From: Selenomonas ruminantium subsp. lactilytica TAM6421
GTDB lineage: Bacteria > Bacillota > Negativicutes > Selenomonadales > Selenomonadaceae
Assembly: GCF_000284095.1 (NCBI RefSeq)
Contig: NC_017068.1
Coordinates: 682,001 to 746,000, forward strand
Direction: 5' to 3'
DNA length: 64,000 nt
Below the pieces are notes generated by a model that was not told where the DNA came from, made no database searches, and saw nothing but the letters and a program-made list of their open reading frames with translations. The position numbers were made by a program, and so were the translations under genes. Each line of letters begins with the position of its first letter. The stretch's first letter is position 1. This document shows positions 22,994-27,905 of the stretch, in pieces.

Positions 22994-23533
22994 ATGTTTG
23001 GATTTAACCTGAATGGCAAAAATACCGGCCGTAAGGAAATGAGTACCGGTGTACAGCTTCTGGCCTCGATGCTGGTATGTTATCCGGAACTCTATGCCGT
23101 GGCTTACGATCCCAAAGAGACGGAAATCACGTTGGATTTTGTGGTGGAGGCGAAGATCGGCCGGGAGGAAATGGAGGAATTTGCCAGCCTCGTGGACAAG
23201 AGCGTGCAGACTTACCATGATCTGCATGGTGGCGGCCCGGTGTGGCTGGCCATCGATGCCGATGTGAATGGCAAGCTCATGACGGTTCATGTGCGGCGGC
23301 AGCTGGTTTCCATGCTGCGGGGTGAGCTCAACCTGCTGACGGAATTGTTCCATGAGAAATTCGGTGAGGCCCTGCAGATCGATGTGCATACCCTGGATGC
23401 GCTGGAGCCGGAGTTTTCGACGATGCAGAGCAATCTGCTGGATCAGATGTTCGATCTGGCGCAGTCCAGCCGCATCAAGGAGCGCATGATCGGCATGCGG
23501 GATAAGGATAAGGTTGTAGTCTACAACCGTTGA
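22994..23533 (+). CDS. Hypothetical protein between rny and ymdB
   Basis: A 179-residue soluble protein with no signal peptide, membrane segment or motif that I recognise. It is acidic, mixed alpha/beta (LDFVVEAKIGREEMEEF, AIDADVNGKLMTVHVRRQL), and ends in a basic segment. It starts 13 bases after GGAGAGGAT-type sequence at 22980-22988 and is 12 bases before ymdB, so it belongs to the RNase Y operon. That context suggests a role linked to RNA turnover or signalling, without further support. Confidence 0.7.
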   Translation: MFGFNLNGKNTGRKEMSTGVQLLASMLVCYPELYAVAYDPKETEITLDFVVEAKIGREEMEEFASLVDKSVQTYHDLHGGGPVWLAIDADVNGKLMTVHVRRQLVSMLRGELNLLTELFHEKFGEALQIDVHTLDALEPEFSTMQSNLLDQMFDLAQSSRIKERMIGMRDKDKVVVYNR

Positions 23534-24325: not shown

Positions 24326-24479
24326 AAAGCAGAAGACCGAAAGATTTTCAGAAGAATTTTCCCTGAGGCAGGATTTTTTCCGCCTATGCAGAATACTAAG
24401 TTAGTATCAGTTAGATATGTCATAGGAAAAATCTAGAACATTGTTGCAGTTTTGTTGCAAGAGAGGACGTGTGCGAATC

Positions 24480-24740
24480 ATGGAAATCTTGAAGGTATCT
24501 GCGAAATCGAATCCGAATTCAGTGGCAGGAGCTTTGGCTGGTGTGCTTCGGGAGCATTCCAGTGCGGAAATGCAGGCCATTGGTGCTGGAGCTCTTAATC
24601 AGGCGGTGAAGGCTGTAGCCATCGCCCGGGGCTTTGTGGCACCGCACGGCATTGACCTGATCTGCATTCCGGCTTTTACCGATATCAATATCGAGGGTGA
24701 AGAGCGCACTGCTATCAAACTTATCGTTGAACCGCGCTAA
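24480..24740 (+). CDS. spoVS: Stage V sporulation protein S
   Basis: An 86-residue Alba-like protein that begins MEILKVSAKSNPNSVAGALA, near-identical in style to SpoVS of Bacillus and Clostridium. ATG 24480 is preceded by AGAGAGGACGTG; a longer frame from 24441 lacks a site. SpoVS also occurs in non-spore-formers, where it probably binds nucleic acid, so it is no proof of sporulation here. Confidence 0.95.
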   Translation: MEILKVSAKSNPNSVAGALAGVLREHSSAEMQAIGAGALNQAVKAVAIARGFVAPHGIDLICIPAFTDINIEGEERTAIKLIVEPR

Positions 24741-25628: not shown

Positions 25629-26462
25629 ATGGATGTGATTGCTTTAGTCGGGCCCAGTGGTACCGGCAAAAGCCACCATGCGCTGATTGTGGCGCATAAA
25701 CATAAGGCGGACGCCATTATCGATGACGGAATCCTGATTAAGGACGGCAAGATAGTAGGCGGTCATTCCGCGAAAAAAGAACCGAGCAAGATCATGGCTG
25801 TACGGCGGGCAATTTTTGTGCTGCCGGGACATGCTGAAGAGGTGCAGGCGGCCATCAAGGAGGCTAAACCGCACCGTATCCTGATTCTGGGCACTTCGGA
25901 GAATATGGTGTTCAAGATTGCCAAGGCGCTGCATCTGCCGCAGATTGCCAAGATCATCCACATCGAGGATGTGGCTACCAAGCAGGAGATGGCGGCGGCG
26001 CAGTACCATCGGCTGAAGGAAGGCAAGCATATCATTCCGGTGCCTACCATCGAGCTCAAGCCGCATTTTTCCGGTTATCTGGTGGACCCGTTGCAGACCT
26101 TGTTTAAGCGGTCATCCACTAAGCGGCGTCGTTTGGGCGAAAAGTCCATTGTGCGGCCGGTGTTCAGTTATTATGGCAAGCTCAGCATCGACGATTCGGC
26201 AGTCAAGTCCATCGTGCAGGTGGTGCTGAAGAAATTTGAGGCCATCACGAAGGTGGATGGCCTGCAGGTCAAGCATCTGATGCGGGGCGAGGAGGATTTG
26301 GGCCTCAAGATTGTCTGCGGCGTGGTGCTGACCTATGGCAACCATATTCCCACGCTGCTGGGGCAGGCACAGAAAGATGTGCGGGATGCGGTGGAGTATA
26401 TGACGGGCATGATCGTGCATGAGGTCAATATTCAGGTAAAAACACTATATGTAAAAGCATGA
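25629..26462 (+). CDS. P-loop NTPase fused to an Asp23/Gls24 domain
   Basis: A 277-residue two-domain protein. The N-terminal half begins ALVGPSGTGKSHHA, a Walker A motif at residues 8-15, and contains ILILGTSENMVFKIAKAL; I cannot assign its substrate. From about residue 178 (YYGKLSIDDSAVKSIVQVVL) to the end (VNIQVKTLYV) it reads as an Asp23/Gls24 envelope-stress domain, which is normally a free-standing protein. It is the last gene of the spoVS-PHP run, 14 bases after the PHP gene. Confidence 0.8.
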   Translation: MDVIALVGPSGTGKSHHALIVAHKHKADAIIDDGILIKDGKIVGGHSAKKEPSKIMAVRRAIFVLPGHAEEVQAAIKEAKPHRILILGTSENMVFKIAKALHLPQIAKIIHIEDVATKQEMAAAQYHRLKEGKHIIPVPTIELKPHFSGYLVDPLQTLFKRSSTKRRRLGEKSIVRPVFSYYGKLSIDDSAVKSIVQVVLKKFEAITKVDGLQVKHLMRGEEDLGLKIVCGVVLTYGNHIPTLLGQAQKDVRDAVEYMTGMIVHEVNIQVKTLYVKA

Positions 26463-26484
26463 TGGTTTACATCGTGGTGGTAAG

Positions 26485-26570
26485 ACGCCCGGTGGCCGAC
26501 AATTACTTTTCTTCGCTTTGACAAAAAGCGCCAAACGCTACGAAAAGCAATCGCCAGCCACCGGGCTTTT
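26485..26570 (+). terminator. Large branched terminator-like structure
   Basis: The outer stem GCCCGGTGGC (26487-26496)/GCCACCGGGC (26557-26566) is a perfect 10 bp and is followed by TTTT. Inside, CGA/TCG, CTTTTC/GAAAAG and CGCTTT/AAAGCG continue the pairing. It ends the P-loop/Asp23 transcript but is much longer than a usual terminator. Confidence 0.75.
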
Positions 26571-26576
26571 GCGTAA

Positions 26577-27800
26577 TTACCGCAGGGAGTTTATGGTTAC
26601 CAGCAATAGGGCCAGCGCCTGGCCTGCCAGCGCGCCCCAGGCGGGGAGGAAGGGGAGGCCGAAGGGATAGAGAGCACCGGCGGACAGGGGCAGGATTACG
26701 GCGAAGGTGATCAGGGAAATAAGTTTGTTCTGGTTGATGCGGCTCAGGGTGGCTTGGCCGATTTCCCGCAGGACGGCAAAGTCCCAGAGCAGCCCGCTGC
26801 GCAGGAAGATGGCCTGAGGATTTTCCTGCTGGGCGGGTGGCAGGCCGGTTTCATTATCCAGTGGGTGTCTGGCCGGGGCCAGCTCGATAACGGCGTCAAC
26901 GGCTTTGCCCAGTTCATCGGGAACCTTGCCGCGTTCCACGATGGCCACACCGGTGCCGCGGGCTTTCAGGAGCTGGAGCTCCCGGAGCTTGCCTTCCAGC
27001 GTCAGCTGGCCATGGACGGAATCAAGGCCGGCTTTTTGGCCGATGGCTTCAGCCGTGCGTTTGTTCTCCCGCGTGAGCATCACAGTACGGATGTGCTGGC
27101 GCTGCAGCTTGTGGATGGCGGTCAGCGTGTTATTATCCAAAGCATCGTCTACGGCGATGATGCCCCGGCAGTATTTGCCGTTGGCCACAAAGATGGTGCT
27201 ATGGCCTCTTTGGGCCAGCTGGTCGTTTTTGGTGAGGAGATCAGCGCTGATATCAATGCCTTCCTTCTTGAGCCAGAACAGGCTGCCCACCCGCAGGGAA
27301 TTGCGTCCCACGATGGCTTCCACGCCGCCGCCGGGGACTTCGGTGAAGGTGCTGGCTTCGAGGAGCTGGACGCCCCGCTGGCTGGCTGTTTCATAGATGG
27401 CCTTGCCTAAAGGATGGGTGGCTTCCTTTTCAGCAGAAGCCGCCAGAGCCAGTAAGGTGTTCTGGCTGACACCGGCGGGATAGAGGCTGGCCACATAGGG
27501 ATGACCTTCGGTCACAATGCCGTGACGCCCCAGGATCAGGGTGTCGATATTGCCGATATCGGCCAGCTGGCTGCTGTGCTGGAGGATGATATCGTTTTTC
27601 TTTGCCTGCCGGGCACCACGGGTAAAGGGCAGGATCTTTCCCAGCATATAGGAGAGCGGCAGGGCGGCAATAAGCGTGGCTGCTGCTGCATTTATGACCA
27701 GCAGGTCATCAATACCCTGGCTATGCCAATAATAGCCGATGCCGCCAGCCAGGATAAGCGCTAGTACGAATAGATAAAGACTTGTCATATGTTTTTTCAT
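26577..27800 (-). CDS. Catalytically degenerate P1B-type ATPase homologue
   Basis: A 407-residue protein with an intact frame that aligns by eye with the last two thirds of a heavy-metal P-type ATPase, but every key motif is changed. The CPC membrane motif is replaced by NAAAATL (about 37-43). The phosphorylation motif DKTGTLTEG reads GRHGIVTEG (91-99), so the Asp is Gly. TGDN reads TREN (243-246) and GDGINDAPAL reads ERGKVPDELG. The nucleotide-domain HP (129-130) and GGGV (157-160) and the C-terminal VTINSLR are kept. It cannot pump by the normal cycle. ATG 27800 has a better ribosome site than 27821. Confidence 0.8.
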   Translation of the reverse strand: MKKHMTSLYLFVLALILAGGIGYYWHSQGIDDLLVINAAAATLIAALPLSYMLGKILPFTRGARQAKKNDIILQHSSQLADIGNIDTLILGRHGIVTEGHPYVASLYPAGVSQNTLLALAASAEKEATHPLGKAIYETASQRGVQLLEASTFTEVPGGGVEAIVGRNSLRVGSLFWLKKEGIDISADLLTKNDQLAQRGHSTIFVANGKYCRGIIAVDDALDNNTLTAIHKLQRQHIRTVMLTRENKRTAEAIGQKAGLDSVHGQLTLEGKLRELQLLKARGTGVAIVERGKVPDELGKAVDAVIELAPARHPLDNETGLPPAQQENPQAIFLRSGLLWDFAVLREIGQATLSRINQNKLISLITFAVILPLSAGALYPFGLPFLPAWGALAGQALALLLVTINSLR

Positions 27801-27905
27801 GATAATCCCTCGCTTCTCCATTGATATTCGGCATAAATAAGGATTTTTCCTTTTTCATGTAGGAATTGCAGCTGCCTGTGGAAAATATTATTATTGAAAT
27901 GCAGG

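Follow-up and report, generated by a model that had tools for sequence, protein, structure and literature searches.

The stretch of DNA analysed here, called the window, is 64,000 nucleotides of the chromosome of Selenomonas ruminantium subsp. lactilytica TAM6421 (NC_017068.1, positions 682,001 to 746,000), and coordinates refer to positions within it. It contains a gene on the minus strand whose product is related to the P1B-type ATPases that export copper (Table 1), and the original prediction that its 407-codon reading frame is uninterrupted proved correct. The start codon at 27800 (MKK) is common to most relatives and is preceded by GAGGG, which resembles a ribosome-binding site; an in-frame ATG seven codons further 5', at 27821, is an alternative possible start. 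No consensus sigma-70 promoter was found between 26440 and 28000, where 1.0 would be expected from shuffled sequences. Directly 3' of the gene, at 26484-26572, lies an 89-base stretch with complementary ends (gcccggtggc...gccaccgggc); it is a dispersed repeat, occurring at 10 places in the genome including this one, in matches of 76 to 100% identity that cover it wholly or in part. The neighbouring gene (25629-26459, plus strand) encodes an unusual combination of a P-loop-like GPSGTGKS sequence at its start and an Asp23 domain (Pfam PF03780) at its end, and it is kept beside the PHP, SpoVS and ymdB genes in S. ruminantium genomes. Farther away on the plus strand are a SpoVS gene (24441-24737), in a genus that to our knowledge is not spore-forming, and, between the RNase Y and YmdB genes, a gene (22994-23530) for a 179-residue protein that has no Pfam match and is 70 to 89% identical in relatives. 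Comparison with phage families gave one generic ATPase match.

Table 1. Features of the pseudo-pump gene, in window coordinates
Feature	Position	Strand	Basis
Pseudo-P1B-ATPase coding sequence, 407 residues plus stop	26577..27800	minus	intact frame, profile score, orthologues
First membrane hairpin, equivalent of M3-M4 of CopA, residues 1-68	27597..27800	minus	modelled helices 3-27, 32-46 and 49-68
LPL replacing the CPC copper motif, residues 47-49	27654..27662	minus	alignment
GRHGI replacing DKTGT (phosphorylated Asp to Gly), residues 91-95	27516..27530	minus	alignment
N (nucleotide-binding) domain core, residues 106-215, conserved module	27156..27485	minus	conservation, rates, model
Glu124, equivalent of the CopA nucleotide-site Glu	27429..27431	minus	Glu in 49 of 52 rows
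His129-Pro130, HP motif	27411..27416	minus	His in 48 of 52 rows; HP in 84 of 105
Gly157-Gly158-Gly159, GxG nucleotide loop	27324..27332	minus	first Gly in 42 and last Gly in 52 of 52 rows
TREN replacing TGDN, residues 243-246	27063..27074	minus	alignment
ERGKVPD replacing GDGIND, residues 289-295	26916..26936	minus	alignment
Second membrane hairpin, equivalent of M5-M6, residues 339-406, copper ligands gone	26583..26786	minus	model and alignment columns

The protein matches TIGR01525, the NCBIfam heavy-metal P-type ATPase family, with an E value of 7.5e-44 and 150.5 bits, below the curated cut-off of 346.25; it also fails to meet the TIGR01511 cut-off (93.2 against 397), and HAD-like Hydrolase is the sole Pfam family to exceed its own. 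Its closest named relatives are Selenomonas ruminantium strains. When its motif columns were read against the CopA of the same genome (L027), all four predicted replacements were seen, with ERGKVP standing opposite GDGIND, and so was the predicted retention of the HP and GxG motifs. The suggestion that the C-terminal membrane motifs survive was right only for GALYPFG and N-x-L-R, but not for the copper ligands of M5 (Tyr-Asn) and M6 (Ser-Ser), which alignments show to be missing here and in most of the related pseudo-pumps. The N-terminal metal-binding and first membrane segments are absent, as had been noted, but the loss is larger than was thought and also takes in MA, MB, M1, M2 and all of the A domain. 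What is left starts at the counterpart of helix M3, and the columns of the A domain, with its TGE(S) motif, are gapped. An active P1B pump would be recognized by the Asp of DKTGT, by TGE(S), by the CPx and M5/M6 ligands, by TGDN and GDGIND, and by scores above the family cut-offs, and the protein fails on each. Membership of the P1B superfamily by descent rests instead on an N-domain fold with its E, HP and GxG residues and on orthology to an intact CopA in both phylogeny and synteny, and these it has.

Orthologues were present in 20 of 22 genomes of the same genus, the matches in the other two (83% and 86% complete) being no better than those of ordinary pumps, and in 107 of 121 genomes sampled across the family, representing 27 of 30 genera (labelled g1 to g30 here). 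The gene can be lost, as no copy was located in the other 14 genomes (from g7, g8, g11, g13, g14, g20, g22, g25 and g29), several of which are incomplete; absences were examined closely only in the genomes of g8, g11 and g22 and in two of g13. The interval between ispE and cydA contains no pseudo-pump in g11 and g22, and in g22 the ispE and cydA matches lie 290 bases apart. In g11 it is occupied by a ferredoxin-like protein (L172 7571-8422, L177 7547-8398 and L178 7590-8432), recognized by eye from its CxxCxxCxxxC clusters, and the idea that a hidden degenerate pump lies there was rejected. A search of 151 genomes of the order returned matches from the same family only. Among 120 genomes of the class, searched with E values up to 1e-25, a single open frame of fewer than 500 residues was found outside the family (G186, 432 residues), and it was rejected as an Asp-less pseudo-pump because its locus retains DKTG(T/S). 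Nor were long Asp-less forms found among the 13 loci fetched from outside the family, all of which have DKTG(T/S).

In a motif table drawn from a MAFFT alignment of 112 orthologues, in which single rows may be misaligned in the weak columns (CPC, transmembrane, GDGIND), the catalytic Asp is missing from 105 and is replaced by G (27), N (21), S (18), A (16), P (13), T (5), R (3) or C (2). All motifs are intact in six orthologues (two from g10, one each from g16 and g23, and two from g24), as far as the contigs reach; that of g23 is cut by a contig end inside GDGIND. In g19 (L074 5251-7209) the sequence DRSGT places an Asp at the catalytic column within the Asp-less clade, in a protein that has lost TGE, CPC and GDGIND, and this Asp is either a chance reversion or the product of a misaligned column. 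Measured from the first Met, intact orthologues are 738 to 756 residues long (the g23 copy is cut at 632), degenerate forms with a remnant of the A domain (g6, g7, g14, g19, g20 and g30) are 601 to 734, and the short forms of other genera are mostly 334 to 485, with 529 in g12 and 559 at L113. The g29 copy also has an A-domain remnant, but its frame is broken by a stop. Five g6 loci (L066, L087, L088, L089 and L124) hold a near-full-length degenerate pump with a CopZ-like metal-binding gene still adjoining it on the downstream side, an intermediate stage. Two g5 copies (L169 and L170), left out of all trees and of the count of 112, also lack the Asp, and their HP has become DP or another residue pair as read by eye.

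A quick tree of 83 rows was built with 58 of the 112 orthologues, hand-picked at one to several per genus (52 Asp-less, counting g19 as such despite its Asp, and six intact); counts out of 52 given here refer to these Asp-less rows. All 52 fell into a single clade (SH-aLRT 100), and the Asp state changed once. CPC is rarely kept in them, the first Cys being present in 9 rows and the second in 4, and at the M5 column Tyr is not among the five commonest residues and Asn occurs in 5 rows. A careful tree of 59 rows, including 38 of the 112 orthologues, supported the Asp-less clade at 100/99, its union with the intact g10, g16 and g23 sequences at 100/100, and the group with g24 added, which contains all intact orthologues, at 90/97. 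An origin from the replacement CopA, with the Asp-less rows grouped with it, was rejected by the AU test (p 1.1e-5).

Synteny places the gene at an old copper locus. In g24 (L078 and L091) the intact genes are arranged as prs-glmU-gntR-ispE (divergent), csoR-copA-copZ and cydABDC, and in g16 csoR-copA-copZ likewise adjoins ispE; the g24 arrangement ispE / csoR-copA-copZ / cydABDC is the ancestral place of the gene. Several genera with a pseudo-pump have ispE, the pseudo-pump and cydAB in the same order. Across 82 loci, ispE lies within 1 kb of the gene in 45 (16 genera) and cydA in 25 (8 genera), neighbours inherited from the intact state, and the constant genomic partner that the original prediction had proposed looking for was not seen. 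In the window's own clade the gene adjoins the Asp23-domain gene and not ispE or cyd, and the ispE (L183), csoR-copA (L184) and cyd (L185) stretches of the window genome hold none of these genes together with the pseudo-pump. In a TIGR01511 search of 20 genomes, the intact orthologue was the only match over the cut-off in all six genomes with intact motifs, all six pseudo-pump-bearing genomes searched (G000, G025, G026, G039, G050 and G053) had a separate full-length match of 855 to 895 residues, and genomes without a located pseudo-pump retained a CopA. The computed trees and synteny show that the pseudo-pump descends from the original CopA of the family and that the catalytic Asp was lost once. 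The simplest history, which we infer, is displacement by another CopA, a single loss of catalysis and then reduction.

The original prediction held that this is a retained pseudo-enzyme and that frameshifts or stops in relatives would make it simply a decaying gene. Such breaks do occur, in a minority of six of the 112 orthologues: single in-frame stops at L016, L059 and L082, frame changes at L123 and L125 (both g25), and a C terminus in another frame at L113. They are absent from the other 106, two of which (L022 and L077) are cut by contig ends. A sequence error is likely at L016 (L042 in the named set), because the same assembly also breaks prs and glmU. A permissive frame check flagged 20 of the 112: these six, eight within about 20 codons of an end, and six broken upstream of the present start in comparison with one longer relative (L133, L136, L137 and L140 of g21, L118 of g25 and L097 of g30), as if the N terminus were still being shortened. 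In the four g21 loci the upstream sequence resembles the L095 N terminus except that it contains stops, a pattern suggestive of recent loss of the first hairpin.

The proposed dN/dS comparison gave values of 0.034 to 0.233 for the pseudo-pump (26 usable of 28 close pairs from g1, g3, g7, g9, g18, g21, g25, g27 and g30), indicating purifying selection like that on active CopA. In the window genome and two near relatives, active CopA gave 0.082 to 0.098 (three usable of four pairs) and the pseudo-pump 0.077 to 0.123. These estimates rest on the Nei-Gojobori method alone and on hand-picked close relatives, with dS up to 1.4, and the domain borders used with them are approximate. A slowly decaying pseudogene might be suspected from the graded loss of domains across genera, the six broken frames and the fast evolution of the transmembrane and P domains described below, but dN/dS near 0.1, as for active CopA, frames that are nearly all without internal breaks and an N domain evolving more slowly than in active CopA are not the relaxed selection and broken frames of decay, and we regard decay as very improbable and, as a general account of the clade, as refuted by the selection data. 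It could hold for g25, where L123 and L125 are frame-changed relative to L079 and the highest dN/dS was measured (0.233, L079-L125), and where the pseudo-pump may be decaying. Retention is strongly supported by the single multi-genus Asp-less clade, the CopA-like purifying selection and the small number of internal breaks.

Selection does not act evenly along the protein. In eight genomes in which both the pseudo-pump and the active CopA were in hand, mean pairwise identity (28 pairs) was 0.231 for the pseudo-pump against 0.762 for active CopA in the transmembrane helices and 0.299 against 0.656 in the P domain, but 0.466 against 0.428 in the N domain, a ratio of 1.09 that ranged from 1.03 to 1.17 when each genome in turn was left out. 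Tree lengths on these columns were 10.77 against 1.25 for the helices (8.6 times faster in the pseudo-pump), 7.08 against 2.53 for the P domain (2.8 times faster) and 4.56 against 6.33 for the N domain (0.72 times, slower). The N domain is therefore the fastest part of the active pump and the slowest of the pseudo-pump. An entropy measure over 106 rows agrees with this profile (0.516 for the N domain against 0.20 to 0.39 elsewhere). Eleven positions are newly constrained, that is, fixed to at least 85% among the Asp-less forms but to less than 65% in 29 active copper pumps, and ten of them, including E161, R170, W176, T190, D193 and Q194, lie in the N domain, which accounts for 110 of 407 positions (hypergeometric P 1.3e-5). 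Conversely, 69 positions fixed in pumps are lost in the pseudo-pump and only four of these are in the N domain. Such P values take no account of shared ancestry and are no more than indicative.

Modelling against CopA, another check that had been proposed, gave a full-length model of fair confidence (pLDDT 73, pTM 0.56) that matches CopA structures. The N domain was modelled alone five times, with confidence from 93.8 to 35.4, and the best model (pLDDT 93.8, pTM 0.88) superposes on Archaeoglobus CopA bound to AMPPCP (3a1c_A) at 1.5 A with a TM-score of 0.90 and 31% identity. Most residues of the nucleotide site are kept in the alignment: besides those listed in Table 1, a later Gly is present in all 52 rows. 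According to one report, the isolated N domain of the P1B ATPase ATP7B binds ATP with a Kd of about 74 uM (PMC3203118), which means that binding does not require the P domain. Against a nucleotide reading, only 5 of 52 rows keep the Asn beside the nucleotide-site Gly, the His of HP is missing in g5, and conservation of the N-domain positions could instead reflect contact with another protein. Of the two kinds of sensor that the original prediction envisaged, we favour one for nucleotides, because the N domain alone is kept, with slow rates and new constraint, while noting that there are no binding data; a metal sensor working through the canonical copper site was rejected because most of the clade no longer has its ligands.

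Protein contact leads to the possibility that the N domain is kept as a partner-binding surface in which the nucleotide pocket is incidental. The ten N-domain positions fixed only in the pseudo-pump clade may represent such a new surface, but the nucleotide-site residues are themselves among the most conserved in the protein, and we think this explanation fairly unlikely. The original prediction also raised a partner of a true pump, which is neither shown nor excluded; in its specific form, a protein that assists active CopA or copper homeostasis in general in a regulatory or structural role, such as a subunit of a hetero-oligomer, we hold it to be distinctly unlikely. Derivation from a csoR-copA-copZ locus and the CopZ-like gene that still adjoins the degenerate pump in g6 speak for it. 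However, the copper ligands have gone from most of the clade, csoR-like genes adjoin only 4 of the 82 loci, each in an intact genus, and CopZ-like genes only 10, in intact genera and g6, and genomes without a located pseudo-pump keep their CopA all the same.

A role as an accessory factor of cytochrome bd oxidase draws on the proximity of cydA, which lies downstream (at gaps of 31 to 123 bp in g3), and on g9 and five of the six g3 loci, which show the link to cyd without one to ispE. This proximity is older than the loss of catalysis, as g24 shows, and does not extend to the window's own clade, where the gene is elsewhere; moreover, pseudo-pumps are present where cydA was not found (for example G019 and G027 of g7, G032 of g12, G034 of g14 and G046 of g26) and were not found in the g8, g11 and g22 genomes, which have cydA. 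We consider such a role improbable. Cytochrome bd and CopA are candidate partners only by ancestry or neighbourhood, and the presence and absence data argue against either as an obligatory one. Activity as an enzyme or transporter of altered chemistry seems to us barely credible: the HAD fold is kept and in g19 the catalytic column holds an Asp, but HAD chemistry depends on an Asp nucleophile, the column varies freely among eight other residues, TGDN and GDGIND are not kept, and the g19 protein lacks TGE, CPC and GDGIND.

Overall, the gene is a real, selected, family-wide pseudo-pump that belongs to the P1B lineage by descent and is not a P1B pump by function. Its role is probably regulatory, with ligand and partner only inferred, and the explanation that we prefer, with somewhat better than even confidence, is a membrane-anchored nucleotide sensor or scaffold; nucleotide binding is an inference, and there are no binding, expression or phenotype data. 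On this explanation, the original CopA would have been displaced when another CopA of about 850 to 900 residues, encoded elsewhere in the genome, took over copper export, a step inferred to have come first. The old gene would then have lost its phosphorylation chemistry once, followed by the copper site and metal-binding domain; most genera also shed the A domain and the helices preceding it. It may have been kept because the cytosolic N domain, held at the membrane by the helices that are left, has a use of its own: we infer that it would bind ATP or ADP but not hydrolyse them and that its occupancy might be relayed to a partner protein via the P-like domain and the helices. A more specific version remains speculative and is on balance unlikely: the displaced copper pump would have become a membrane-anchored sensor of adenine-nucleotide state whose transport part is a mere anchor and which, lying immediately ahead of the cytochrome bd operon in several genera, may adjust respiration to energy charge.

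Pseudoenzymes are well known among kinases and phosphatases. For a bacterial P-type ATPase pseudoenzyme, or one with a lost DKTGT, no precedent was found in the open-access literature, seen mostly as titles and abstract openings, and the passages of a review that were retrieved with the terms sought mention no such class (PMC10654040). The pseudo-pump described here can be traced at one syntenic locus from an intact gene through intermediates to a four-helix remnant, for which we found no counterpart in open-access print. Its inverted conservation profile suggests that natural selection has separated nucleotide binding from pumping, and it leads to the prediction that the isolated N domain should bind a nucleotide. 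In practical terms, family matches annotated as "HAD hydrolase" or "heavy-metal ATPase" can mark non-pumps in this bacterial family.

Among known systems, CopA (P1B-1; TIGR01511 and TIGR01525) is related by direct descent and shares the M3-M6 topology, the outline of the P domain, and the N-domain fold with its E, H and GxG residues, whereas the pseudo-pump lacks the phosphorylated Asp, TGE, TGDN, GDGIND, CPC and the M5/M6 copper ligands and, in its short forms, the A domain and first four helices. The N domain of KdpB (PDB 1svj) has the same fold and was solved as an isolated nucleotide-binding domain, but KdpB belongs to an active pump complex. The nearest analogue is human TMEM94, a likeness drawn without comparison of the sequences. 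TMEM94 has a P-type-ATPase-like architecture without TGES and is reported to bind AMPPCP with micromolar affinity while showing no detectable ATPase activity (PMC12134183). Unlike the pseudo-pump, it is eukaryotic, has ten helices and an A-like domain, and is structurally closest to SPCA, and its classification is disputed (PMC12134183).
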